Shown piece after piece: positions 3,741 to 57,445 of a stretch of 64,000 bases of DNA; position 1 is the first letter of the stretch, and each line of letters begins with the position of its first letter. Made by a program: the position numbers and the translations under genes. This stretch comes from a virus. The notes under the pieces were generated by a model. That model had not been told where the DNA came from and made no database searches. It saw only the letters and a list, made by a program, of their open reading frames with translations. Location: IMG/VR virus record IMGVR_UViG_3300022700_000048, positions 1 through 64,000 of that record, one strand, 5' to 3'.

Positions 3741-6700
3741 ATGAATAAACTTAATATTCTTAATGAAATAAAAGCCTTTTTAGATGGATATAATGAAGAT
3801 TTAAAATATTTAGTTCATGTAGAAGCAAATCCTAATGTAAATTATGCCGAGTGTATTATTCACCCACCAAATGAAGAGAAACGAATTGAAAAAATACAAT
3901 ATGAACCTTTTATGTATATGAAAGATTTAAAAAGTAATAATATTACCTTATTTAATAATGATAAGGAATTTATTAAAGAAAAAATGGTTCAATATGGTAT
4001 TAAGATAAAAAAATTAAAAACTGGTGGACAAAAAAGATTAGAAAATGGTTTTTGTTATAAAATAACAAGCACTAAATCATATAAATCAATAATTAATTTT
4101 TTTCGTGATGGTGGTGTTTATATATATGAAAAAGCTAGAGATGATGAGGGAAATGTAATTGAAAATAATAAAGGTAAACCAATATTTTTATATCGTCATT
4201 TATTTTATTCCCCTAAACCATATGAACAATTTTTAATTAATAAAAAAGCAAGATTATTTAAGGGTTTTGAGGAGTATGAAGATATTCATAAATTAACATT
4301 TGATATTGAATCAACGGGTTTACGTCCTGAAATATCAAGAGTTTTTGCTATTGGTGTTAAAGATAATAGGGGATTTGAAATAGCATTAGAGGTTGAAAAA
4401 ACAGATGATGATGAGGCAGAAGCTAATTTAATAAGAGATTTTTTTAATACTATTGCTAAAATAAAACCAGCTATTATTATTGGACATAATTCAGAAGAAT
4501 TTGATTTTTATTATCTATTGGGTAGAGCAAAGATATTAGGTATTGATTTAAATTTAATACCAACATCATTAAAAAGAGAACAAAAAATAAAAAGAATACC
4601 AAATTCAAAAGTAAAAATTGGTAATGGGTCTGAAGAATATACGGCAACAAAAATGTGGGGTATTTCAATAATTGATACATTACATGCAGCAAAACAAACT
4701 GCTGCAATGAATAGTGATTTAAAGAAAACTAATTTGAAATATGTTGCAAAATACGAAAAAATTGCAAAAAATAATAGAACATATATAAAGGGTGAAGATG
4801 ATTCAATTGGTAGATATTATCATGAAAATCCAATATTTTTAGCAAATGATAAAAATGAACATATTGAAATACCTAAAGAATTTCAAAAAACAGGGAAAAG
4901 ATTATTTATTGCTCAACAAAAAAAGAAGGAATTAACAGAAGATCAATATAAAAAAATAAAAAAACATTGTTTTAATAATGATCCTGATTTTGTAAAATGG
5001 TATAAGGAAAATAAATTATTAGAAAATAATATGAAGATATTTGTTCAAGGTAAAACACTTTTAAAACAATATCTTCTTGATGATTTATATGAAACAGAAA
5101 AGGTTGATGATTTATATAATGCCTCTTCATTTATGTTAGCAAAAATTGTACCCACAATATATCAAAGAATATGTACAATGGGTACTGCATCAATTTGGAA
5201 TTTACTTTTAACGGCATGGAGTTATGAATATGATATTGCTATACCACATCCAGATGTGAAAAAAGAATATTCAGGTGGTCTTACACGTTGTTATAAAATA
5301 GGCTATACAAAAAAATTAGCAAAAATTGATTATGCATCATTATATCCGATGTTACAGTTAACATGGGATATATTTCCAATATTTGATATTAGTAATGCAA
5401 TGAAGAAAATGCTTATATATATGACAACAACTCGTAATATATATAAAAAATTGGGTAGATCAGAATTATTAGAAAATGAAGAAATTGAATTATTAAAAGG
5501 AATTGATCATGAAACATATATAAAATATAAAAATAAAACATTAACAGAAAAAGAAAGAAATATCTTTAATGTGAAGCAATTACCACTTAAAATTCTAAAT
5601 AATTCACAATATGGTGCATTAGGTTCAGATGTTTCATTTAATTGGTCAGATAACGTATGTGCTGCTCGTATTACAACGTCAGGTCGTTTAGAGTTAAGAC
5701 ATGCTATTTCATGGTTTAAAAATTTTGGTATGACACCACTGCTTGCAGTAACGGACGGCGTTAATTTTCATATTCCTGATAAAACTAAAATAAGAATATC
5801 TGATGATGGAATAAGTGAGGGAAATAATGAGGGTTTAATTGAGGAAATGTGGAAATATAAAGGTGAAACAGGTCTTAATGCAATAATTGAATATTTTAAT
5901 GATTCTGAAATGAGAAAACCATATATGGCAGCAGATAATGATGGTGAGTTTGTTTCATGTTTAAATTTATCACGTATTAATTATGCACTTTTAGAAGAGA
6001 AAAAAGATAAAAAAACCGGAAAAATTAATAAAAAAATTAAACTTACTGGTAATACAATTAAATCAAAAGTATTATCAGAATATATTGAAGAATTTATAGA
6101 TAATGGATTACAATTGATTCTTGAGGGTAAAGGATATGAATTTGTTGAATATTATTATGATTATGTTGAAAATCTTTTTTATCAAAAAATACCATTAAAG
6201 AAAATTGCGAGTAAAAGTAAATATAAGCAAACATTAAAGGATTATTTAAATAGAGGTGTTGATAAAAATGGTAGGAAAAAGGGTAAACAAGCACATATGG
6301 AATTAGTATTGGAAGAAAGAGAAAATATTGCTGAAGAATTATTTGAAAAACATAAAGAAAATCTTCAATTTATTAAAGATGAAAATGATTTAACAATTGA
6401 AGATAAAATGAAATTAGTTGATGTATATATGCCACCTGAACCAGAATTGGATAGTACTATTTATTATGTTAATACTGGTTATAGAAAATCACATGGTGAT
6501 TCACAAAAGATAAAAGATAAAAAAACAGATAAAAAAAGATTTGCAGCTAAAATTATTAGTAATAAAGATTTGATTGAAAATCCGGATATGACTGGTGAAT
6601 ATAATGTTGATAAATATATTAATGCATTTAATAAACGTGTTAAAACAATATTAGTTGGTTTTGATCGTGAAATTGCTGAAAAAATACCTGCTCGTATTGT

Positions 6701-7430
6701 TAGAAAGAAAGTTAAAGATGAAGAGACTGGTAAAAAGAAAGAACGAGTAAATCTTGAACGTAATTTTTTTACAAAAGATCAATTAGTATTAAAAAATTTT
6801 GATAATGATGATTTTGATGAATCAATGCATTTACAAGAAAAGGAAGTAAATTTTTGGAATGAAACTGGTTTTGATCCACGTTTAGTTTGGAATGGGTTTA
6901 AAATGTATGACGATATGAAAATATATTTTGAAATATATGAAAATGCACTTAAATATTTAAACAATAAAATGAAAAAAGCAGGTAAACCACCAATTAAATC
7001 TAGGAATGAAAAAATAAATAATGGTGAATATGTTTTATTAAAAAATGGTTCGGAATATAGTGTTGGTTATAATAATGGTAAATTTATTGAAATTATTCGT
7101 GAAAATGTAAATATACCAAAAAGTAATATTGAAAAAGAATTAGATAAAAAAACAAAAAAAGAAGAAGAAAAAAGAAAACAGGAAATTGATAATTTACAAG
7201 GTGGTATAGCTAATAAAACAAAAGCTGAAATTGATTTTGAAAATCAAATAAAATTAAGAGAAAAATATTTTCCAATTTTTAAAAAGAAATTTAATTTACC
7301 TGATGATATGACTTATGATTTTTATCAACAAGATACTGATGGGATTGGTGATGAAATGCTTGATAAATTTATAAAAACTGAAGAACAAAAAAATGAAAAT
7401 GAAAAAACTAAATATTTAGGTATTGATTAA
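3741..7430 (+). CDS. DNA polymerase family B with 3'-5' exonuclease domain
   Basis: A 1229-residue replicative polymerase. The exonuclease domain has DIES (Asp near 188), the GHNSEEFDF motif II and a YLLDD motif III-like segment. The polymerase domain has motif A DYASLYP (near 530), motif B with NNSQYG (near 620) and motif C as VTDG near 670-673. Motif C is unusual: the first Asp of the usual DTD appears replaced by Val, while the second Asp (672) is kept. The C-terminal 500 residues are lysine-rich and longer than in T4 gp43 (about 900 aa). It is the last gene of the replication operon; a late-type motif follows at 7454. Confidence 0.95.
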   Translation: MNKLNILNEIKAFLDGYNEDLKYLVHVEANPNVNYAECIIHPPNEEKRIEKIQYEPFMYMKDLKSNNITLFNNDKEFIKEKMVQYGIKIKKLKTGGQKRLENGFCYKITSTKSYKSIINFFRDGGVYIYEKARDDEGNVIENNKGKPIFLYRHLFYSPKPYEQFLINKKARLFKGFEEYEDIHKLTFDIESTGLRPEISRVFAIGVKDNRGFEIALEVEKTDDDEAEANLIRDFFNTIAKIKPAIIIGHNSEEFDFYYLLGRAKILGIDLNLIPTSLKREQKIKRIPNSKVKIGNGSEEYTATKMWGISIIDTLHAAKQTAAMNSDLKKTNLKYVAKYEKIAKNNRTYIKGEDDSIGRYYHENPIFLANDKNEHIEIPKEFQKTGKRLFIAQQKKKELTEDQYKKIKKHCFNNDPDFVKWYKENKLLENNMKIFVQGKTLLKQYLLDDLYETEKVDDLYNASSFMLAKIVPTIYQRICTMGTASIWNLLLTAWSYEYDIAIPHPDVKKEYSGGLTRCYKIGYTKKLAKIDYASLYPMLQLTWDIFPIFDISNAMKKMLIYMTTTRNIYKKLGRSELLENEEIELLKGIDHETYIKYKNKTLTEKERNIFNVKQLPLKILNNSQYGALGSDVSFNWSDNVCAARITTSGRLELRHAISWFKNFGMTPLLAVTDGVNFHIPDKTKIRISDDGISEGNNEGLIEEMWKYKGETGLNAIIEYFNDSEMRKPYMAADNDGEFVSCLNLSRINYALLEEKKDKKTGKINKKIKLTGNTIKSKVLSEYIEEFIDNGLQLILEGKGYEFVEYYYDYVENLFYQKIPLKKIASKSKYKQTLKDYLNRGVDKNGRKKGKQAHMELVLEERENIAEELFEKHKENLQFIKDENDLTIEDKMKLVDVYMPPEPELDSTIYYVNTGYRKSHGDSQKIKDKKTDKKRFAAKIISNKDLIENPDMTGEYNVDKYINAFNKRVKTILVGFDREIAEKIPARIVRKKVKDEETGKKKERVNLERNFFTKDQLVLKNFDNDDFDESMHLQEKEVNFWNETGFDPRLVWNGFKMYDDMKIYFEIYENALKYLNNKMKKAGKPPIKSRNEKINNGEYVLLKNGSEYSVGYNNGKFIEIIRENVNIPKSNIEKELDKKTKKEEEKRKQEIDNLQGGIANKTKAEIDFENQIKLREKYFPIFKKKFNLPDDMTYDFYQQDTDGIGDEMLDKFIKTEEQKNENEKTKYLGID

Positions 7431-7479: not shown

Positions 7480-8136
7480 ATGCGTAAAAAATTTAAGAAA
7501 AAAGATATTGATGAAATTATTAATTCTGATGGTGAATTAATAGGTGGTGATGATTCACCAAATAGTGGTTCCAATTTAGAAACACAAGCTAATAATACAA
7601 CTGATTATAATGCAAAAATTGGGCATCAACCATATAGGTATGATATGCTTGGTCGTTTTGGTTTTACTCTTTTACCTTTTTTCGAAGGTGTTGAAGGTGA
7701 AGAAAATAAACCAAATGAATTAATTAATGAATTAGCCAAATACATGTATAATAGATATATGGAAATTCTTGAATATTATTATCGAAATCCAGAAAAATTG
7801 AAATCTGATTTTAGAAAAAAATCTGAACAAGATTCTGAAGATAATATTAATGATGTTGATTATAAAAATGCTGAAGATATACTTGAAATAATAAAAAAAC
7901 ATTTTGGTGATTCGTTAAAAGAACTGGATGAAAATTTAAAAGAGAATATTGATGAAAATAGTTTTATTGAAGGGAAAATGTTAGATAAAAAGGATAAAAA
8001 AAGTGATGTTGTTAATAAAAAGAAGGATAATGATGTTCTTGATAAAGAAAAGAAAACTGAAAAAATCGCTGATTTAATTAATAAATTAGATAAAGATGAT
8101 GTAAAAAAAATAAAAAATTTATTAGAAACTGAGTAA
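7480..8136 (+). CDS. Hypothetical virion-associated protein, 218 aa
   Basis: First gene after a late-type motif. It has a charged N-terminus, a central aromatic segment (YRYDMLGRFGF, near 50-60) and a long acidic/lysine-rich helical C-terminal half with predicted coiled coil. It overlaps the next gene by one base (TAATG). No enzyme motif is visible. The late motif and position suggest a structural or scaffold-type protein, which is inference only. Confidence 0.6.
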   Translation: MRKKFKKKDIDEIINSDGELIGGDDSPNSGSNLETQANNTTDYNAKIGHQPYRYDMLGRFGFTLLPFFEGVEGEENKPNELINELAKYMYNRYMEILEYYYRNPEKLKSDFRKKSEQDSEDNINDVDYKNAEDILEIIKKHFGDSLKELDENLKENIDENSFIEGKMLDKKDKKSDVVNKKKDNDVLDKEKKTEKIADLINKLDKDDVKKIKNLLETE

Positions 8137-8921
8137 TGAATTCAGAATTATATAATAAAACATATCAGTTACCAACTGAAATTTTAAAACATATTCAGAA
8201 GGTTTTAACATCATATCCAACTGGTGAGGGTGTTAAACGTGCAAAGCATTTATTAAAAAATAAATATGTAACATATCAATCACTTAAAAGATTGAAAAAT
8301 TTTTTTGATCATTATAATGGTGATAATGAACAACAATATGAATTAGCAGGTGGTGATTTAATGAAATCATTTGTTGAAAAAACATTACAAAATGATAGAG
8401 ATGCTGTAAAGAGAAGTGATGATATAAAAAGAGATGTTACTAATAATCCTAATCTTGGTACAAAAGCACAACAGACACCACAATTAAATGAAAATAATGA
8501 TATAAATAATATTACAAATGATGATTTAAAAAAAAATGCTTTAGGAATAATAATAAATGATAATAATCAAATTCTTTTATTAAAAAGAAATCCCAATATT
8601 GAACAATGGCAACCCGGTAAATGGGCACTTGTTGGTGGTGGTATTGAAGATAATGAAACATCAGAAGAAGCATGTAAACGTGAAATAAAAGAAGAAACTG
8701 GATTAATAATTGATCAATTTAAAGAAAAATTTAACATACAAAGAAATCCAGACAGTATTGAATATATTTTTATATCAAAATATGATGGTGATCCATTAAA
8801 TATTAAATTAAATTTTGAACATATTAAATATGGTTGGTTTTCACCTGAAGAAATTAGATTTTTAGATCATGTTCCTAATTTAATTGATTATGTTAATATT
8901 GCATTTAAAAAATACGATTAA
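8136..8921 (+). CDS. Nudix hydrolase fused to an N-terminal helical domain
   Basis: The last 125 residues are a Nudix domain with a full Nudix box: GGGIEDN, then REIKEETG near residues 167-190, matching GX5EX7REUXEEXGU. The first ~130 residues are a separate helical, basic domain that ends in an Asn/Asp-rich linker. Nudix enzymes cleave nucleoside diphosphates linked to another group; the substrate here cannot be told from sequence. The extra N-terminal domain is atypical for free-standing Nudix proteins and could be a virion-attachment or nucleic-acid-binding part (inference). Confidence 0.85.
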   Translation: MNSELYNKTYQLPTEILKHIQKVLTSYPTGEGVKRAKHLLKNKYVTYQSLKRLKNFFDHYNGDNEQQYELAGGDLMKSFVEKTLQNDRDAVKRSDDIKRDVTNNPNLGTKAQQTPQLNENNDINNITNDDLKKNALGIIINDNNQILLLKRNPNIEQWQPGKWALVGGGIEDNETSEEACKREIKEETGLIIDQFKEKFNIQRNPDSIEYIFISKYDGDPLNIKLNFEHIKYGWFSPEEIRFLDHVPNLIDYVNIAFKKYD

Positions 8922-8955: not shown

Positions 8956-9195
8956 ATGAGTAGATTAGAAGAAATGAGTAAACAATATAGAGAAGAACAA
9001 ATTTCTCGTAATGATTATGATAAAAATGATGAATATTCTGGAACACATCCAAATGCTTTATCAGATGGTGATGAATTGGGTAAAGGTGAAAAAAATGATT
9101 CTGTTGGTAGTAAAACCGATATTGAACAAAGAAATTTACAAAAAGCAAGAAATAAATATAATTTTAATAAACCATATAATGATAGTACAGCATAA
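8956..9195 (+). CDS. Small hydrophilic protein, 79 aa
   Basis: A polar, charged, probably disordered protein with no recognisable domain. Its stop codon overlaps the start of the next gene by one base, so the two are translationally coupled. An alternative frame from 9011 is a shadow without support. Confidence 0.55.
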   Translation: MSRLEEMSKQYREEQISRNDYDKNDEYSGTHPNALSDGDELGKGEKNDSVGSKTDIEQRNLQKARNKYNFNKPYNDSTA

Positions 9196-10094
9196 TGCTT
9201 AATGAGTTAAAAATATTATTTAAAAATATAAAAAATTTTAGAGGTGGATTATTAAATGAAGTTGCTGGTGAAGGTTCAATACGTGATGCTATTAATGATA
9301 ATAAAATTTTATATATTTATTATAATGGTGATGAAACAATGCAAAAGGGTTATCGTACAATTAGACCATTTGTTTTAGGTTCACATAAAGAAAGTGGTAA
9401 TAAAGTTTTAAGGGCATGGCAAGATGCTGGTTCAAGTGCAAGTTTTAGAAATATACCAACTAATTCTCGATGGGGGCATAGATATGAAAAAGGACATGAA
9501 TTTTTTGATAATCCTAAACGTGGTGGGACACAACCGGGTTGGAGATTATTTAGAGTTGATAAAATAGTATCTATATTACCAACAGGTGAAAAATTCACAC
9601 CTGATGAATATTTTAATGTAAGTGGTGTTGAATATAACCCTAATGATAAAGAAATTAATGTAGATATTGCGATATCTAAAGATATGGGTGCTGATACTAA
9701 AGTTAGTGGTACTGATTCAATTAGTAAACCTGATAAAGTATTAACAAAAGTTAAATCAAGTACTTTTGATAAACAGACAAAAAAATTTAAACAATTTTTT
9801 AAAGCAGCAAAAAAAACAAGAGAAATAACAAAAAATGAAGTAGAATCATTATGGGATGCTGTAAAAAAATATAGGAAAAAATCACCCAAAAATTATCATG
9901 TAGTTGAAAATGAGAAAGGTGATATGGTACTTGTTACTAATAAAGCTATAGAAAGAGGTGATATCCCTAAAGAAGCTATTGTTGGTAATTTGCAAGATTT
10001 ATATAATAAATTTGTAAAAACAAGAGGTTCAATACCAACAGATTTTTTTAATAAACAAAAAAATGATTTATTAAATCAGAGAAATAAAAAATAG
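9195..10094 (+). CDS. WYL-like domain protein, 299 aa
   Basis: Residues about 20-150 resemble a WYL domain: an initial strand ILYIYYNG, then YRTIRPFVLG, a strand ending in LRAW, and the closing WRLFRVDKI segment. WYL domains are ligand-sensing SH3-like folds, often in transcription regulators of phage defence. There is no HTH in this protein. The C-terminal half is lysine-rich and helical and could contact DNA or the capsid. Its start overlaps the previous stop by one base. The WYL call is pattern-based and moderately secure; the role (injected regulator or structural protein) is unknown. Confidence 0.55.
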   Translation: MLNELKILFKNIKNFRGGLLNEVAGEGSIRDAINDNKILYIYYNGDETMQKGYRTIRPFVLGSHKESGNKVLRAWQDAGSSASFRNIPTNSRWGHRYEKGHEFFDNPKRGGTQPGWRLFRVDKIVSILPTGEKFTPDEYFNVSGVEYNPNDKEINVDIAISKDMGADTKVSGTDSISKPDKVLTKVKSSTFDKQTKKFKQFFKAAKKTREITKNEVESLWDAVKKYRKKSPKNYHVVENEKGDMVLVTNKAIERGDIPKEAIVGNLQDLYNKFVKTRGSIPTDFFNKQKNDLLNQRNKK

Positions 10095-10881: not shown

Positions 10882-12348
10882 ATGAATACCAAAAAAAATT
10901 ATAAACCATTAAAGTTATATGAATTAATTGATATGAATCGTGGTGGTATTTATCATGATTTTACACACGGTATTGAAAATAGAAGGGCATGGTGGGGATT
11001 TCAACCATATTATCCACCAAATGATGAACCCGGTTTTGTAAATGAAAATTTTATTAAATTTGTTGAATCTCGTGATAATTATTTAATTCGTAGACCAATA
11101 TTTCATATGACAACATTAGAAGAAGAATTTAATAATGCTGTAAAAAATCTTTCTGAATATGTGAACAAATCTAAAAATAGTTATAAATTTTATAATAATT
11201 TAAGAAAACTTCAGGAATATCTAATAGAGTGTGGTTCAATTAATGAAGAAATAGTGTTAAAACCATTAAAAAATGAAGATGGGAGTACTAAATTTTCAAC
11301 AGATAATAATGTGGGGGGTGATCAATTTCCAGCATATAATAATAAATCAACAGAACCATCAATTGAGAATAATTTAGATGCTAATTCATTTATGTATCAT
11401 GAAAACGATAATAAAAATCGTAGAATAGTGGACGAAGAATATTTGGGTAATATACATCAAAATGTTGAAGTTTTTAAAAATCCTAAATCAATAAAAAGAT
11501 TAGAACCAAATATTAGAGGAATTGTTACAGAAAATGGTGATTTATATGTTGTTAATTGTGGTAATTATGATATCATACATAATGATTTTTCAAAATGGTT
11601 AAATATAATGGGATATCCAATACCATCAAATATATATGATTATTTAGAAAATAATATCCCACTTCAAAGATATGAAAAAACTAATAAATTTTATCTAGGG
11701 GAAAGTATGACAACGCAAAGAATTAATAATCATATTGATAGTTTTAGAAAAATAATAAAAAGAGCAGGAAATAAGAATCCAACAATTAATTTTATATTAG
11801 AAAACATTAATAAAACATTTAATTTAGATGATGCTATAAAAAATTTAAATGAAAGACAAAAGGCATGGATTCCGGGTTCAAAAGCTGTAACAGTTAAACA
11901 AAAATGTCGTCTTGGGGGGGTAAATGGTAAATCAGCAGCTTGTAATCAAGGTGATATATCTAATTTGGAATTTTCTTCACTTGATGAAGAAACAAAACTT
12001 GATCAAGGATTTGTGGATGGTTGGCATAGTTATGATATTTTACATAATGATGATGTTGCTGGTGAAATGGAAGTTAGTAATCGTGATAAATATATGGTTT
12101 TAAATAGAATATATATTAATCCAGAGCATAGAGGAATGGGTCATGCTAAAGATGCAATGAAAATTTTAATTGATTATGCTGATAAAAATAATAAAATAAT
12201 TGCATTAACACCTGATAATGTTTGGGGTGCAAGTAAACAAAAATTAAGAAAATGGTATTCATCATTAGGTTTTGTTATGAATAAAGGTCGGAATGCTGAT
12301 TATAAAATACAAGCTGCAATGATAAGATATCCTAAAAATAATAATTAA
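10882..12348 (+). CDS. Large protein with C-terminal GNAT acetyltransferase domain
   Basis: 488 residues. The last ~110 contain the GNAT signature: a strand LNRIYINPEHRG, the acetyl-CoA loop RGMGHAKDAM and the closing KWYSSLGFVM. The region before it (about residues 330-355) carries two cysteines in a segment rich in small residues (KCRLGG, AACNQGD) that I cannot assign. The first 250 residues are unassigned and start with aromatic-rich sequence. GNAT enzymes transfer acetyl groups to amines; the target is unknown. A large non-catalytic N-terminal region suggests a multidomain effector or virion protein rather than a simple metabolic enzyme. Confidence 0.75.
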   Translation: MNTKKNYKPLKLYELIDMNRGGIYHDFTHGIENRRAWWGFQPYYPPNDEPGFVNENFIKFVESRDNYLIRRPIFHMTTLEEEFNNAVKNLSEYVNKSKNSYKFYNNLRKLQEYLIECGSINEEIVLKPLKNEDGSTKFSTDNNVGGDQFPAYNNKSTEPSIENNLDANSFMYHENDNKNRRIVDEEYLGNIHQNVEVFKNPKSIKRLEPNIRGIVTENGDLYVVNCGNYDIIHNDFSKWLNIMGYPIPSNIYDYLENNIPLQRYEKTNKFYLGESMTTQRINNHIDSFRKIIKRAGNKNPTINFILENINKTFNLDDAIKNLNERQKAWIPGSKAVTVKQKCRLGGVNGKSAACNQGDISNLEFSSLDEETKLDQGFVDGWHSYDILHNDDVAGEMEVSNRDKYMVLNRIYINPEHRGMGHAKDAMKILIDYADKNNKIIALTPDNVWGASKQKLRKWYSSLGFVMNKGRNADYKIQAAMIRYPKNNN

Positions 12349-45443: not shown

Positions 45444-45500
45444 ATGAAAAAAATTAATTTAGATCATAATATAGGAACACTTCCGGTTATTACATTATGA
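45444..45500 (+). CDS. Possible 18-aa leader peptide coupled to the next gene
   Basis: An 18-codon frame starts four bases after the previous stop and its TGA overlaps the next ATG as ATGA, the usual layout for translational coupling in this genome. The size is too small for homology; the case is positional only. Confidence 0.3.
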   Translation: MKKINLDHNIGTLPVITL

Positions 45501-46099
45501 AGCACATAGACAAGGAAACATATAAAATAAAACAAATTAATAGATATAAGAATAAAACAAAGAAAAAGCAAATTATCATATCTTTTAGTTTAAGAAAAAA
45601 TAATTATCACATCATTCATTCACAAAATAGAGAATACGGTAAATCTAAAAAATGGAATACATATACAATTTCAAGAGAAGGTAATATATATGAACATTAT
45701 AATCCTGAATATTATAGTGATTTTATGAATATTAAAAAAGTTGATAAAAAATCAATATCAATTGTGCTTGAAAATATGTGTTCAGTTGTAAAAAATAATA
45801 ATGGTAATTATATTAATTGGTTAAATGAATCATGTCCAAAAGATGTTGTTATTGAAAAACATTTTTTTGGCTCAAAATATTGGGAATTAATAAGGGAAAA
45901 ACAATATAATTCAACAATTTATTTGTGTAATTATCTTTGTGAACAATTTAATATACCTAAAAAAATTATTGACTTTCATTATTATAATGAAAATGTGGAA
46001 GATTTTAAAGGTATTGTTTTTAGAAGCAATTATTTTGAAAATAGTACAAATATACATCCTTTATTTGATATACAAAAAATAAAAGAAAATATTAAATAG
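45497..46099 (+). CDS. Degenerate amidase-2-like protein, 200 aa
   Basis: Central features follow the amidase_2/PGRP layout: TYTISREGNIYEHYNPEYY, then SISIVLENM, then a helix QYNSTIYLCNYLCEQFNIP. However the metal-ligand histidines (for example the HHT and the late H/C of real amidases, both present in the endolysin at 52325) are not evident. It could be an inactive peptidoglycan-binding or immunity-type relative. The call is structural pattern matching and should be read with caution. Confidence 0.45.
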   Translation: MKHIDKETYKIKQINRYKNKTKKKQIIISFSLRKNNYHIIHSQNREYGKSKKWNTYTISREGNIYEHYNPEYYSDFMNIKKVDKKSISIVLENMCSVVKNNNGNYINWLNESCPKDVVIEKHFFGSKYWELIREKQYNSTIYLCNYLCEQFNIPKKIIDFHYYNENVEDFKGIVFRSNYFENSTNIHPLFDIQKIKENIK

Positions 46100-46123: not shown

Positions 46124-46588
46124 ATGAATAAAAGAATACTTGACATAAAGAAAAAAATTGATGGTAATAATTTACAAAAGAAAACCATAAAAGAGTTTGT
46201 AAAAAAGCAATTAACTACTCAAGATTTTGTAAAAAAAATGCGTTTAGTTAATGAACAAGAAGATAATGAACAAAAAAATTTAAAAACTGTATATGATCAA
46301 ACAAGAGAAGAAAAAAATTTTAGAAATAATGTGGATGATTTAAACGTTGTTGTTGATTTTAATCCATTAGAAGTTTATGATGATTTTGTATTTTGGGGTG
46401 GAACAATTGATGGTATTATACAATTTGTATATAAAGTAACACCTGATGAAGATACAAGTGGTGTTGAATTTAATTATCTTGAAGATTTTAATCCGGAAAA
46501 TGAAGATAATGAAGAAATTATTGAAAGAATTGAGAATTATTATGATCAATTTTATAAATACTGGAGAAATAATATAATACAAATATAA
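46124..46588 (+). CDS. Hypothetical protein, 154 aa
   Basis: Basic helical N-terminus (about 60 residues, containing LVNEQED, which resembles a prohead-protease site) and an acidic beta-containing C-terminal domain (FVFWGGTIDGIIQFVY). No known family. Single-gene unit between a late motif and a terminator, consistent with a structural component. Confidence 0.6.
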   Translation: MNKRILDIKKKIDGNNLQKKTIKEFVKKQLTTQDFVKKMRLVNEQEDNEQKNLKTVYDQTREEKNFRNNVDDLNVVVDFNPLEVYDDFVFWGGTIDGIIQFVYKVTPDEDTSGVEFNYLEDFNPENEDNEEIIERIENYYDQFYKYWRNNIIQI

Positions 46589-47546: not shown

Positions 47547-47762
47547 ATGAAAAAAAAGGAAAAGGATGAAATTATTGATTTAATACAAAAAGAATTAAAA
47601 GATTTTGTTAAAGATGAATTAGATAAAGAAATGGCAGATATTTTACATAAATCAAATAGTAAAACACATAAAGAACTAATTGATATGATTAAGGATTCGT
47701 TAGAATCAGTGTTTAAACTATTATGGGTTAAAAAAGATTTTTGGAAAACAAATATAAAATAA
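47547..47762 (+). CDS. Small helical protein, 71 aa
   Basis: A single charged amphipathic helix with a Trp-containing C-terminus. The stop codon overlaps the next ATG (TAATG), so it is coupled to the large repeat protein and may be an assembly partner. No family. Confidence 0.6.
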   Translation: MKKKEKDEIIDLIQKELKDFVKDELDKEMADILHKSNSKTHKELIDMIKDSLESVFKLLWVKKDFWKTNIK

Positions 47763-50700
47763 TGAAAAAAAATATAACAGAAAAAAGAATTGATAGTACG
47801 TTTGATGAACCTCAATCTACTCAAGCAATTAATTTTCAAAATAAATTTGATAAAACTATGGCAATACATGGTATTAATTTAAGTGAAGTTGATAAACAAC
47901 TTAATGAAAAAGAACAATCATTAAAAAAGAAAATTTTTAGTTTATCTAAAATGGAAGCATTAGTATTTTCTGATCCTAAATTATCAGCAGTATATGATGA
48001 AATGGCTGAAAACGGTGAAGAAAAATATGGGTATCATTATAATGAAACAATTATGAATATAATTTTTAATGATTATGTCTTAAATAGTTCAAAATATTTA
48101 CAAAAATATAAGAAAGCCGTTCCCAAAAAGAAAAAAAGAAGAGATAAAAGTGGAATTGAAGCACTTAAAAAAGATACTAAGGATATAAAAAAACGTGAAA
48201 AAGAATTAAAAAAAGAAAAAGAAAATGAAAGTATAAATGAAACAACAGGTGCTGCTAAAGCAGGTGCATATTCAACAAAAGCTGGTGATAATACTAATTA
48301 TGAAGCTAATGACCTTTCTGATGGAAAAGAATGGAAAAAATTAATAGATGCTGAAATAGCTGAAATTGCTAAAGAAATGAAAATGAAGGATAAGAAGAAA
48401 AAAAAGAAAAAGGCAAAACCAGTTGATAAAACTAATTTTGTTGGTGGTAGTTCAGCAAAACCATCATGGAAAGGTGGAAAAATAGTTGATAATCCTAACA
48501 ATAATTTAAATGAATCACATATGGATAGTTTAAATAATGCAAAACAAAAAGCACAAAAAATAAGTAAAGAAGATGATGTAGTACAACATGTGAATCAAAT
48601 ATCTGATGATAATTATGAGGTTTCTGATTGGTATGATACTGATAAAACAATTGTGAGTTATGAAGGCGGTAGGGAATTAGATGAAAATAAATTAAATGAA
48701 AGTCATTTAGAAACAAGGGAAGATAAAATAGATTTTATTAAAAAGCATACAGATAAAATTGCACCTTCAAATTATCCAGAATCCGGAAAGTCAATTTATG
48801 ATTGGTTAAATGGATTAAATGATAAATCAATTGATAGAATTTATAAAAATATTGAAGATAAATTGGGTGTTGATGAAACAACAACTGCATCAAGTTCCGG
48901 TGCATATGTTGGTCCAGCTATGTGGGGGAGTGGTGATTTAATGAATGGTGGAAAAGAAAAGAAAAAAGATAAAAAACCTTATTGGAAAGGTGGTGAAATG
49001 ATTAAAGAGGGTAATTATTTAACAAATTCTAATGGATTTGAAAAGTATTACAATATGTTAACAGAAGGAAAAAATTTAGATATATCTGAAATAAAAAAAC
49101 AACTTGAAGGCACAGAAATAAAATCATTAGAACATGAAGGAATGGTATATGTAGAAAATGGTATTGCATATAGTGCTGATGATCAACAACCACTTAATTT
49201 AAATGATCAAGGATGGAGAAATTTATATAACGAATATTTTGAAAATGAATTTGGTATACATCCTGATACTATGAAAGATGATAATGATACATTTAGTTGG
49301 GATCAATTATCAAGTATGGGTTTAATTGAAAATGGTGATATGAATGAACATCATTTAGAAACAAAAGATCAAAAAATTAGATTTATCATGAATAATATGG
49401 AAGATACTATGCCAATTGAAATATTAAATGATATGTCTGATGAAGATATTGATACATTATATCAACAATTAGAATCTGAAATGGGATTAAATGAAAATCT
49501 TAATAGAGATGATATTATTGGTTTTGATAAAATTATGAGTCAGCTAAATACTATGGGTGCTTTTGATTATGATTTATTTAATGATGTGTGTGAAAAAAAT
49601 AATATTGATGGTGTAACATTGATTAATATGATTGCAAATGAAAGAAAAAAACAAAGTGATAAAGCATCATTGAATGAAAAATCTAAATCAAAATCTCAAC
49701 AACAAGCAGCAGGTATGGCACTTGCAGCCAAAAGGGGTGAAATGGATGTTGAAGATTTAAAGGGTGCTGCTAAACAAATGTATGATAGTATGAATACTGA
49801 TGATCTTGAAGATTTTGCAGAAACCGAACATGAGGGTTTACCAAAACATGTTGATGAAAATAAAGAAAATTTAGTTGATTTTGACATACCTGAATGGGCA
49901 ATGTCAGCATTGATTAATGATGACAGAAGTGGTTTAAGTGATGAAGATGAAGCAAAATTAGATGAATTTATTAATGATGTTGCTAATCAATATGGAAATG
50001 CGCATTTTCTATTAGGTGATATTGATGGTGAAGATAATTTGGGTTTTAAACATTCTAATGACATTGATAATTTAGGTAGTGATGTATATAGAGTATATAT
50101 TAATCCATCGAAACAATTAAATGAAAAATCAGAGTCCGAAGAACAAAGAAAAGCAGCAGGTGCTGCACTTGCAGCTAAAAGAGGTGAAATGAATGCTAAT
50201 GAATTGTATGGTGCTGCTAAAGATATGTATAATAGTATGAGTGAAGATGATCTTGAAGATTATGCATCTGGTGTTAAAGAAAATCAAAATGAAAATATGG
50301 AAATAAATGAACATCATCTTTCAACAAAGGAAGATAAAATGAAGTTCATAATGAAAGCAGATGAATTATTAACGGGTACACAAAGACCAGAAAATAAATT
50401 TTTAGAATATCTTAATAAATTAAATGATGAGAAATTACATAATTTATATTTAAGATATGAAAATAAATTAAAAAAAGAAGGTTATGATCCAACAGAAATA
50501 GATATTAATCAAAAAAGTAAATTAGATGAACATCATCTTGAAAATAATGAAGATAAAATAAATTATATAAAAAAAGTTGCTCCATTATTAATGCCAACAA
50601 CAATGGTTGATAGTTATATTGAATTATTAAAAAATTCTTCTGATGATATGATACATGATGCGTATTTAAAAGCAGAAGATATGCTAAGAAATAAAGGTAT

Positions 50701-51850
50701 TGACCCTGAAAAAATAACTGAAACAATGATTGATAATCAAGAAGATTCAATGAAATTAGACCCTAATCCAATAAATGTTGATGCCGGATCGGATATGCCC
50801 AAAGGTATGCAATCTAGTGGTTCAATGGGTGAAAGTAAAAAAAATAAAAATATTATGAAAGAATCAAATGAATATTTAGAAAAATTAAATAAAGATTTAA
50901 AACTTATTGAAATGCATCAAAATAAATTAGAAGAAGATCGTAAAACATCAAGTCTTGTAATGAAGGATCGATATGGTAAAGAAAATGAAAAAAATTTTAA
51001 ACAAGACCTTAAACATAGTGGTACAAAAGATATAATTGATACAACAAAAGAACTTGAATGGAAAGATCAACAAACAGAAGTTGGAAAAGACCCACAAAAA
51101 TTGGGTAAAGATATTGAAAAACAACATATGAAAAATACAAAAGGTGATTCATTTGAAAATAAAGGTAATTCAACAAATAATGATGGTAATGAAATACCTA
51201 AACGTAATTTAACTGATGATGAAGCTGATGAAGTTGATTTATATCGTAAAGGTCTTGGTGATTTTGTATATGATAATGAACCAAGTGAAAGATATAAGGA
51301 AAGAATGAAACGTGATATGGGTGAAAAGAATTATAAGAAAAGACAAGATAGACTTGATTTTCAAGCAAAAGCACCAATGTATAATAAAGATAGTACACCT
51401 GTTGATGATGGTATTGAAAAAGTTCAATATGATAAAGATAAAAGTAAATGGAATAGTAGAATGGGTATTAAAGAATCAACATTAACTGGTAAGTATACTG
51501 ATGAAATGGGTAAAACAAGAATTTTTGATTTTAGTACATTAAATGTGCAAGAAATTAATGATTTAAAAAATAATAAAAATGGTGCATTTTTTAAAATGGA
51601 CATGACCGGACTTGGTAATTCATATGATAAAAAAGGTCAAATTCTTGAAAATATTACAACTGCTATTAATGAATGGGAATTTTATACTGATGGTAATAAA
51701 AATGTATTTGCATATAAACCAATAAAAAAACTAAACGAAAATAAAGAAAAGAATAATAAAAAAAATGTTAATGAAGAGTTTAATAAAATGAAACATCTTT
51801 TAAATTATAAACCAAAAGATTTTATTGATACTAAAAAAAATAAATTATAA
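47762..51850 (+). CDS. Giant modular repeat protein with L/I-N-E motifs, possible head polyprotein
   Basis: 1362 residues, hydrophilic and helical. Four or five ~55-residue modules begin with N-E-x-H or D-E-H-H (residues ~249 partial, 311, 527, 847, 921), each followed by xxxDKIxFI and a closing L/Y-rich helix. Two DUF3008-like modules (AAGMALAAKRGEM and AAGAALAAKRGEM, near 637 and 786) are interspersed, as are basic, GxYVGP/GAYSTK segments. Many module borders carry LNE, INE or LDE, close to the (L/I)xE sites cut by T4 prohead protease. Interpretation as an internal head or scaffold polyprotein is inference. ATG 47762 is preferred to TTG 47741. Confidence 0.65.
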   Translation: MKKNITEKRIDSTFDEPQSTQAINFQNKFDKTMAIHGINLSEVDKQLNEKEQSLKKKIFSLSKMEALVFSDPKLSAVYDEMAENGEEKYGYHYNETIMNIIFNDYVLNSSKYLQKYKKAVPKKKKRRDKSGIEALKKDTKDIKKREKELKKEKENESINETTGAAKAGAYSTKAGDNTNYEANDLSDGKEWKKLIDAEIAEIAKEMKMKDKKKKKKKAKPVDKTNFVGGSSAKPSWKGGKIVDNPNNNLNESHMDSLNNAKQKAQKISKEDDVVQHVNQISDDNYEVSDWYDTDKTIVSYEGGRELDENKLNESHLETREDKIDFIKKHTDKIAPSNYPESGKSIYDWLNGLNDKSIDRIYKNIEDKLGVDETTTASSSGAYVGPAMWGSGDLMNGGKEKKKDKKPYWKGGEMIKEGNYLTNSNGFEKYYNMLTEGKNLDISEIKKQLEGTEIKSLEHEGMVYVENGIAYSADDQQPLNLNDQGWRNLYNEYFENEFGIHPDTMKDDNDTFSWDQLSSMGLIENGDMNEHHLETKDQKIRFIMNNMEDTMPIEILNDMSDEDIDTLYQQLESEMGLNENLNRDDIIGFDKIMSQLNTMGAFDYDLFNDVCEKNNIDGVTLINMIANERKKQSDKASLNEKSKSKSQQQAAGMALAAKRGEMDVEDLKGAAKQMYDSMNTDDLEDFAETEHEGLPKHVDENKENLVDFDIPEWAMSALINDDRSGLSDEDEAKLDEFINDVANQYGNAHFLLGDIDGEDNLGFKHSNDIDNLGSDVYRVYINPSKQLNEKSESEEQRKAAGAALAAKRGEMNANELYGAAKDMYNSMSEDDLEDYASGVKENQNENMEINEHHLSTKEDKMKFIMKADELLTGTQRPENKFLEYLNKLNDEKLHNLYLRYENKLKKEGYDPTEIDINQKSKLDEHHLENNEDKINYIKKVAPLLMPTTMVDSYIELLKNSSDDMIHDAYLKAEDMLRNKGIDPEKITETMIDNQEDSMKLDPNPINVDAGSDMPKGMQSSGSMGESKKNKNIMKESNEYLEKLNKDLKLIEMHQNKLEEDRKTSSLVMKDRYGKENEKNFKQDLKHSGTKDIIDTTKELEWKDQQTEVGKDPQKLGKDIEKQHMKNTKGDSFENKGNSTNNDGNEIPKRNLTDDEADEVDLYRKGLGDFVYDNEPSERYKERMKRDMGEKNYKKRQDRLDFQAKAPMYNKDSTPVDDGIEKVQYDKDKSKWNSRMGIKESTLTGKYTDEMGKTRIFDFSTLNVQEINDLKNNKNGAFFKMDMTGLGNSYDKKGQILENITTAINEWEFYTDGNKNVFAYKPIKKLNENKEKNNKKNVNEEFNKMKHLLNYKPKDFIDTKKNKL

Positions 51851-52324: not shown

Positions 52325-53104
52325 ATGGGAAGTAGAAACATATTTACATTTGGTTTAATGTCTGATACATTAAAATACGCTACAAAGCAAAAAGAAAAAG
52401 AAAAAAAAGAATTTGAAAAATTAGATTTAAGTAAAATTAATTTTGTTAATTTCCCTTCAGATCAATATTATAGAAAACAAACTAAAAAAAATCAAATTGT
52501 GTTACATCATACCGTATCTGGACAAGGTGCTAATGGTGATATAAATTGGTGGTTACAAACATCATCTCGAATTGCAACACATATTATTGTTGATTGGAAA
52601 GGTCAAATATACCAATGTTACTCTTCAAAATATTGGGGGCATCATTTGGGCGTTAAATCAAATTTTATAAGGAAAATGGATACAAATAAATCAAATGTTT
52701 TTTTAAATAAACATTCAATTGGTATTGAAATTGATTCGTGGGGAGGATTAGTTAAAAATAATCGTAATTGGTATCCAGCAAAATGGGATAGTAATAAAAG
52801 AAAATTTATTGCAAATACATCATTTGCACCTATAAAAAATGTTCAAAAATACCCTAAAGGGTTTAGAGGTTTTTATGGTTTTGAAAAATATACTAATGAA
52901 CAAATAGAAGCTGTAAGAAAATTATTAGTTTATTGGAAATCTAAATATAATATTCCCCTAAAATATAATGATAATATGTGGGATGTTAATGAAGAGGCAT
53001 TAAATGGTGTACCGGGTGTATGGACACATGTTAGTTATAGAAATGATAAATCCGATTGTCATCCACAACCAGAATTAATATCTATGTTAAGATCATTAGA
53101 TTAG
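52325..53104 (+). CDS. N-acetylmuramoyl-L-alanine amidase endolysin (amidase_2/PGRP)
   Basis: 259 residues. The fold runs from IVLHHTVSG (His61/62) through ATHIIVDWKGQIYQ, SIGIEID and a helical part to THVSYRNDKSDCHP, where His235 and Cys245 match the zinc ligands of T7 lysozyme-type amidases. It cuts the bond between MurNAc and the stem peptide. No signal peptide, so release needs a holin. The N-terminal ~45 residues are an extra charged helix. It sits with several small membrane-protein genes, which supports a lysis block. Confidence 0.9.
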   Translation: MGSRNIFTFGLMSDTLKYATKQKEKEKKEFEKLDLSKINFVNFPSDQYYRKQTKKNQIVLHHTVSGQGANGDINWWLQTSSRIATHIIVDWKGQIYQCYSSKYWGHHLGVKSNFIRKMDTNKSNVFLNKHSIGIEIDSWGGLVKNNRNWYPAKWDSNKRKFIANTSFAPIKNVQKYPKGFRGFYGFEKYTNEQIEAVRKLLVYWKSKYNIPLKYNDNMWDVNEEALNGVPGVWTHVSYRNDKSDCHPQPELISMLRSLD

Positions 53105-56566: not shown

Positions 56567-57445
56567 TTATTTTTTTGCTAAATATTCATTTGTAATATGG
56601 GTATAGAAATACCCTAATGGGTCTCTTAATTCATTATGTTTATGTATTTCATAATGTAAATGAGGTCCAGTACTTCGACCAGTATTTCCAACAGTACCTA
56701 TTTTCTGTTTTTTTCTAACCCATTGACCTCTTTTGACATAAATAATACCCAAATGTGCATATAATGTTTCAAATCCATATGCATGTTTTATAACAACCCT
56801 ATTACCATACCCATATTTTGAATACATTATTTTTACAATTTTTCCACGTGCTGTTGAATATATTGGTGTACCCGGACGAGCAGAAATATCAATACCTTCA
56901 TGAAAGATATAATCACCAGTAATAGGGTGTTTTCTCATACCATATGGGGATGAAATTTTAATAAAGTCTTTTGTTTTAATTGGTGAAATATTTGGATAAT
57001 AATATATAGCGTTTTTATTTGTTTTGAATAAAGAAGATGTTTTTTTAACTTTTTCTAGTTCCAATGCTAACATTTCTGCAGCATATATCATCCTTTCGTT
57101 TAATAGTTTAAATATACTATCATTTTCACTAAAAATTAATTTTGCACTATCGTTTTTATATTTATGATAATTAATTGTATCAAAATTAACTCCTAACATT
57201 TGTGAATAAATAACATTATTATATTCTTTTATTTCATTTATTTTTCCTTCCATTTCTTTTAAATTCTTATTAAGAATTTTTATGTTATGTTTTAAATCAT
57301 AATTCTCATTTAGAAGTTGAGAATGTTTCATATCTTCATTACTGCTTGCAGTTGTTGTTGACTGTGGTTCAGTAACTGTTACATATAAGACTAATAATAA
57401 TACTAATATAAGTAACCTACGAAATATTGATTTTGTTTTTTTCAT
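56567..57445 (-). CDS. Membrane-anchored M23 (LytM-type) peptidase, 292 aa
   Basis: N-terminal membrane segment (LLILVLLLVLYVTVT, residues ~11-25), a coiled coil (about 40-80), a helical part and a C-terminal M23 domain with SSPYGMR, HEGIDISA (His182, Asp186), YAHLG (His231) and GPHLHYE (His264). All zinc and catalytic residues of active LytM are present. The general layout is that of Bacteroidota cellular M23 proteins, so capture from a host is plausible. It would cleave peptide cross-links of peptidoglycan from the periplasmic side. Confidence 0.9.
   Translation of the reverse strand: MKKTKSIFRRLLILVLLLVLYVTVTEPQSTTTASSNEDMKHSQLLNENYDLKHNIKILNKNLKEMEGKINEIKEYNNVIYSQMLGVNFDTINYHKYKNDSAKLIFSENDSIFKLLNERMIYAAEMLALELEKVKKTSSLFKTNKNAIYYYPNISPIKTKDFIKISSPYGMRKHPITGDYIFHEGIDISARPGTPIYSTARGKIVKIMYSKYGYGNRVVIKHAYGFETLYAHLGIIYVKRGQWVRKKQKIGTVGNTGRSTGPHLHYEIHKHNELRDPLGYFYTHITNEYLAKK

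Follow-up and report, generated by a model that had tools for sequence, protein, structure and literature searches.

A modular phage protein with conserved hydrophobic-x-glutamate sites: a probable prohead-core polyprotein of T4-type jumbo phages

Introduction

What is the role of a phage protein of 1362 residues in which distinct units follow one another along a single chain and the borders between them repeatedly carry the tripeptide Leu/Ile-Asn-Glu? The question is raised by an open reading frame (ORF) at positions 47762..51850 (+ strand) of a 64 kb window (the whole stretch of DNA analyzed here) from the 69,646-base virus record IMGVR_UViG_3300022700_000048. An initial annotation, made from the sequence alone, proposed that a protease resembling the T4 prohead protease cuts this modular protein into several internal head proteins or peptides. 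By comparison with its homologs, the protein is modular, its candidate sites and their placement are conserved, and a T4-type protease co-occurs with it in relatives; we consider it probable that it is a prohead-core polyprotein of T4-type jumbo phages, cut at (L/I/V/M)xE by a gp21-like S77 protease into small head proteins.

Substrates of T4 gp21, giant-phage propeptides and phage polyvalent proteins are all already known. Gp21 cuts after L/I-x-E, reducing gp22 and other core proteins to several fragments (PMC9026906), and in T4 IPIII processing is blocked when Asp takes the place of the Glu (PMC9026906); gp21 substrates include core proteins (gp22, gp67, gp68), shell proteins (gp23, gp24) and internal proteins (IPI-III, Alt), and the sites considered here are likewise hydrophobic-x-Glu. 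In the giant phages phiKZ and SPN3US, many head and ejection proteins are targets of gp175/gp245, which cuts after Glu; their long propeptides contain several such sites (PMC10052503, PMC9026906). Polyvalent proteins (Iyer et al. 2017, PMC5512222) are long, multidomain and predicted to be packaged, and their proteolytic release has been discussed, as for P1 DdrB.

Results

Fixed domains enclose a variable set of cassettes

The ORF is complete from ATG to stop, and its 1362-residue modular product is as initially annotated. Forty distinct homologs were collected (a first set of 24, and 16 found later), mostly of about 750-1360 residues, with a minimum of 605. An N core and two C-terminal domains (C1 and C2) are kept in 40/40 homologs, and a GAY module in all but one. 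Between these fixed domains lie cassettes (FLVN, DDCY, GLGV, AFTS/AYGN, KGLQ, SLHD, DUF3008, DUF6926, AQKI, HH and others). Which of them a homolog contains varies, as in some cases does the order in which they follow one another.

Comparison of the homologs shows that phages differ by cassettes acquired, lost or rearranged close to the putative cutting signals. Breakpoints of long insertions or deletions lie within 3 residues of an [LIVM]xE motif 312 times, as against 191.5 in shifted controls, a value that none of 500 shifts reached, and control motifs ending in K, D or N (xK, xD, xN) gave no excess. Glu stands within an [LIVM]xE motif in 44% of cases in linkers and 14% in module interiors, module edges having been set partly by eye, which favors this result; of the eight residues tested, none of the seven besides Glu showed a linker excess. 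Because of these partly subjective edges, the breakpoint test is the cleaner of the two. An AlphaFold model spanning residues 527-985 places the majority of border sites in stretches of pLDDT under 50, between confidently predicted three-helix HH units.

The motif is enriched and conserved in a position-specific manner

The repeated L/I-N-E borders that first drew attention to the protein hold up statistically: (L/I/M)NE occurs 11 times, whereas composition shuffles give 2.25 (Poisson p 2.4e-5), and none of the other ORFs among the 86 on the contig shows as high an excess. A homolog in a jumbo relative behaves similarly (7 vs 1.13, p 1.8e-4; highest of 464 ORFs). The proposed likeness to (L/I)xE sites also holds, in a motif wider than stated, with V and M in the first position as well, and N, D, K, Q, S or T in the second. 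In an alignment of the first 24 homologs, 15 of 37 conserved Glu columns form [LIVM]xE with at least 3 different residues at x; the same count for other third residues ranges from 0 to 3 (K 2, likewise with 37 conserved columns; D 1; N 2; A 3). The effect is bound to spacing, the 15 columns falling to 6, 5 and 3 with longer gaps, and it was replicated in the 16 new homologs (10/22 Glu columns vs 1/24 Lys columns). A whole-proteome test covering six genomes and 128 ortholog groups gave its strongest signal for this family, with 12/19 conserved Glu in the motif (background 0.145, p 1.6e-6); a second modular family, described below, and a gp22-like scaffold came next, with nominal signals.

Relatives encode a T4-type protease and capsid with related sites

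The window record is collinear, in inverted orientation, with the 88-178 kb region of a contig of 339,898 bases, and for that reason most likely represents part of the genome of a jumbo phage. The larger contig carries a T4-type head module consisting of a Gp23 capsid protein (E 1.6e-74), Portal_T4 and an S77 prohead protease. Head genes are absent from the 69.6-kb fragment itself, which matched neither the Gp23 protein nor the S77 profile. A gp21-like protease, which the initial annotation had suggested seeking, is thus missing from the window's own record and present in relatives: of 23 homolog-bearing contigs, six encode Gp23, and five of these six encode an S77 protease as well, Gp23 lying at the contig end in the sixth.

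The suggestion that capsid proteins would share the same sites was borne out, an invariant INE being found in the Gp23 of all six relatives. These capsid proteins read SxMINE|S, after which the residues vary; the motif is framed by stretches in common with T4 gp23, where they lie on either side of the cleavage site at residue 65 (PMC9958956). The equivalence of the two sites rests on these shared flanks, as MAFFT sets T4 E65 opposite a gap in the shorter leader. The S77 protease keeps [ILV]xE at residues 34-42, near its N terminus, and the gp22-like scaffold carries conserved [LIVM]xE sites.

In the jumbo relative, an intein interrupts each of the prohead protease and portal genes (L005:16638-18545, L006:5817-9305); the protease ORFs of relatives G002 and G003 are similarly split, and those of G011 and G012 are intact. 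Contig IMGVR_UViG_3300042261_002390 encodes an S77 protease free of inteins. Two homologs of the modular protein lie on contigs of Bacteroidota metagenome-assembled genomes, which points to Bacteroidota as hosts, and the phage host is probably a member of this group. A tblastn search of the window protein against 50,697 phage records gave no match; a homolog matched in the phage-record search through its DUF3008 region only, in cyanophages and one marine virus.

Features along the chain

All features below are on the + strand. Candidate sites LSE (residues 40-42) and LNE (47-49) lie ahead of the N core (47879..47908), with [LIVM]xE kept in 38/40 and 39/40 homologs, respectively; a structural role for this conservation is conceivable, as predicted helices adjoin. 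The N core (residues 49-137; 47906..48172), found in all homologs, is predicted to be helical (pLDDT about 70-85 in a model of homolog L157). Farther along is a candidate site INE|TTGA (residues 158-160; 48233..48241), where homologs carry VEE, ITE, MNE and others (21/27 in the 40-sequence alignment). The basic GAY segments of the initial annotation are indeed present at about residues 159-211 and 372-416. The former, of KAGD/GAY type (48236..48394), is followed by a candidate LNE (residues 249-251; 48506..48514); the latter, the GAY module (48875..49009), ends in IKE (414-416), kept in 38/40 homologs, and precedes an NYL segment (residues 417-435; 49010..49066) with a C-terminal candidate LTE, kept in 37/39.

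At least four related NE/DE-HH or NESH units had been proposed, and four HH units were confirmed and recovered by profile searches; the first NESH stretch (residues 252-306; 48515..48679) proved to be a different module, AQKI, also found in L034, L036, L136 and L161. HH units span about 50-65 residues each (311-369, 527-575, 848-913 and 921-985, by a delimitation in places slightly narrower than the one below) and start with LNE, MNE, INE or LDE, then SH or HH; each of two units shows 41% identity to the INE and LDE pair. HH unit 1 (NESHLETREDKI..., residues 311-372; 48692..48877) is preceded by LNE and followed by VDE, the latter conserved in 35/36 homologs. HH unit 2 (MNEHHLETKDQKI..., residues 527-578; 49340..49495), with three predicted helices in the AlphaFold model, ends in LNE. 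HH unit 3 (INEHHLSTKEDKM..., residues 848-913; 50303..50500) and HH unit 4 (LDEHHLENNEDKI..., residues 921-987, ending in ITE; 50522..50722) are both predicted three-helix bundles, mostly at pLDDT 80-90 and at about 91-95, respectively.

Between HH units 2 and 3 lies a GFDQ module, also found in L136 (residues 581-639; 49502..49678), whose C-terminal candidate LNE (637-639) is present in 36/36 homologs. It is followed by DUF3008 unit 1 (PF11450; residues 640-699; 49679..49858), ending in VDE (697-699), a DUF6926 unit (PF21977; residues 704-788; 49871..50125), ending in LNE (786-788), and DUF3008 unit 2 (residues 789-844; 50126..50293). In agreement with the two DUF3008-like units initially noted, Pfam finds DUF3008 in two stretches (143.1 bits, cut-off 24; E 2.8e-42; best at 642-697), together with DUF6926 at 708-741 (E 1.9e-7); a DUF3008 match at E 0.01 or better was present in 20/24 homologs. 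DUF3008 and DUF6926 were the only Pfam matches above cut-off, and the scan recognized no enzyme domain. The PHROGs match is a family of unknown function, and Pfam and PHROGs scans found no relation to any T4 protein family. A Foldseek search with both structural models against viral structures returned nothing at E <= 0.001, a result of little weight given the low overall model confidence.

The C1 domain (residues 1039-1236; 50876..51469), found in all homologs, is separated from C2 (residues 1239-1362; 51476..51847) by the candidate site IKE|S (1236-1238; 51467..51475), present in 40/40 homologs. Within C2, candidate sites lie near residues 1261, 1296 and 1304, at LNE 1324-1326 and at VNE 1336-1338, before a conserved tail (NKMKHLLxY); those at 1261, 1296, 1326 and 1338 are kept in 35-39 of 40 homologs, and that at 1304 in 13/24.

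DUF3008 proteins in cyanophages

The T4-like cyanophage S-SCSM1 encodes a 69-residue protein that consists of little beyond a DUF3008 unit and is annotated ‘virion protein’. Virion proteins of S-SCSM1 were identified by mass spectrometry (PMC9602691), which we infer the label reflects. Another cyanophage DUF3008 protein (L182:3495-3704) bears KRTFKEFLEYIE at its very C terminus, a stretch similar to capsid targeting sequences of the T4 type. ORF137 of S-CREM2, a protein seen in virions, was considered as a relative and is not clearly related to the modular-protein family.

Neighboring genes and other candidate substrates

Around the modular gene are two Amidase_2 genes (Pfam) and one gene that is M23 peptidase-like by eye (45497-46099, 52325-53104, 56567-57445). 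These neighbors led us to consider a tail or lysis protein, against which the site evidence speaks. The N-terminal part of a small neighbor (46124-46588) ends in VNE (LNE in the L002 ortholog), like a targeting leader.

Elsewhere in the window, the ORF at 9195-10094 begins with a leader, FRGGLLNE|VAGEG, in which L(K/N/T)E or INE is kept in all six genomes (five orthologs), making it a candidate capsid-targeting propeptide. The ORF at 8136-8921 contains a NUDIX hydrolase domain (Pfam E 1.3e-19) with an LNE site ahead of it, and is possibly a packaged enzyme too. The second modular family is represented by 10882-12348, with a C-terminal GNAT domain in the window copy and orthologs of up to 2688 residues; the orthologs contain repeated stretches that are kinase-like by eye, those of the five relatives have a leader in common, LxE|F, at the N terminus, and the family ranks second in the ortholog-group site test.

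Discussion

If the modular protein is indeed a prohead-core polyprotein, its fixed N and C domains would direct the chain into the prohead during assembly. Once the shell is complete, the gp21-like S77 protease would cut after the Glu of (L/I/V/M)-x-E in the linkers, as conservation of the sites suggests, removing the leader and core pieces and freeing the folded cassettes (HH, DUF3008, DUF6926 and others) as small head proteins. Some of the freed units may stay in the head and could be ejected with the DNA. The head-polyprotein interpretation of the initial annotation is in this way supported, with head location, cutting and retention of the pieces as internal proteins being its inferred parts.

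Several observations weigh against this proposal. T4 gp21 takes L or I in the first position (PMC9026906), and acceptance of V and M here would be an extrapolation. The [LIVM]xxE spacing control is also somewhat enriched at breakpoints (178 vs 127.8), indicating that the Glu richness of linkers explains part of the signal, and the linker comparison is affected by the choice of module edges noted above. An apparently non-head, DNA polymerase-like ORF (3741-7430) likewise has a conserved hydrophobic-x-Glu close to its N terminus; since the leader scan matches this ORF too, single sites and leaders are weak and not diagnostic. Moreover, neither protease nor capsid gene lies on the window's own fragment, and the modular gene sits outside the head cluster, amid lysis and DNA-repair genes.

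The main rival takes the protein for a scaffold or core component of the same kind as T4 gp22, gp67 and gp68, shredded to small peptides that exit the head and so free space for the DNA, with no unit kept as a functional protein. Those three T4 proteins are cut into multiple fragments (PMC9026906, PMC9958956), gp22 has 16 [LI]xE in 269 residues, and the N and C domains of the modular protein are scaffold-like in their strong charge and their helical or disordered character. Few sites lie in module interiors, however, and some of these interiors are predicted to fold compactly, which is not what shredding needs; the head cluster of these phages already contains a separate scaffold-like gene, and the cassettes vary strongly between phages, which would be unusual for an essential scaffold. 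For these reasons we regard complete shredding as unlikely, a view with which the virion annotation of the lone DUF3008 protein in S-SCSM1 also agrees.

A still more improbable alternative, in our estimation, is that the protein is never cut, [LIVM]xE marking linkers or helix caps, or serving as a short recombination tag for cassette exchange, in an intact modular protein that is part of the virion or associated with lysis. Sites do cluster at cassette insertion points, amidase and spanin-like genes adjoin the gene, and conserved hydrophobic-x-Glu is somewhat commoner proteome-wide than the equivalent with other residues (0.145 vs 0.06-0.10). Yet conserved sites also lie within the fixed C domain, where no cassettes are exchanged, and the first and third positions stay while x and the flanks vary, a pattern that a tag acting at the DNA level would leave unexplained; the motif also recurs where the capsid protein is known to be cut and close to the N terminus of the protease.

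The preferred reading, a polyprotein cut in the prohead, resembles the T4 system in that the genomes of relatives encode a T4-type capsid, portal and S77 protease, and in the multiple sites per chain, as in gp22. It differs in its long chain of distinct cassettes varying between phages, whereas T4 internal proteins are encoded by separate genes and bear one N-terminal propeptide; the putative leader up to LxE (residues 42 and 49) is also longer than the leader of about 10 residues in T4 internal proteins (PMC9958956). In phiKZ and SPN3US, propeptides are removed to leave one mature domain, while here the sites are spread from end to end of the chain, between its many conserved units. Polyvalent proteins contain recognized enzyme domains and often a protease domain of their own; the modular protein, without an enzyme domain, would rely on the prohead protease, and the family of 10882-12348, with its GNAT domain, is closer to the polyvalent type. 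The cyanophage protein ‘gp114’ (S-CAM22, S-RIM2; encoded beside the terminase small subunit gene) is likewise a long hypothetical protein of T4-like phages, with DUF3008 and INE/LNE/VDE borders, but has other modules and neither N nor C core, matching via the DUF3008 region. We came across no account of such a cassette polyprotein for tailed phages in the literature searched.

Whereas it is classical for a prohead protease to process head proteins, a chain of exchangeable folded cassettes with cutting signals would amount to a polyprotein strategy. As cassettes are exchanged near these signals, the payload changes and the cutting logic stays. It is possible, though we propose it only tentatively, that a fixed carrier (the N and C domains) with exchangeable effector units allows one gene to deliver a changeable cocktail of small proteins to the head and then to the host cell. 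The site signature offers a simple means of listing the substrates of prohead proteases in giant phages that have not been cultivated, and provides DUF3008 and DUF6926 with a role that can be tested; if the proposal is true, the released units would be candidates for new internal or injected proteins.

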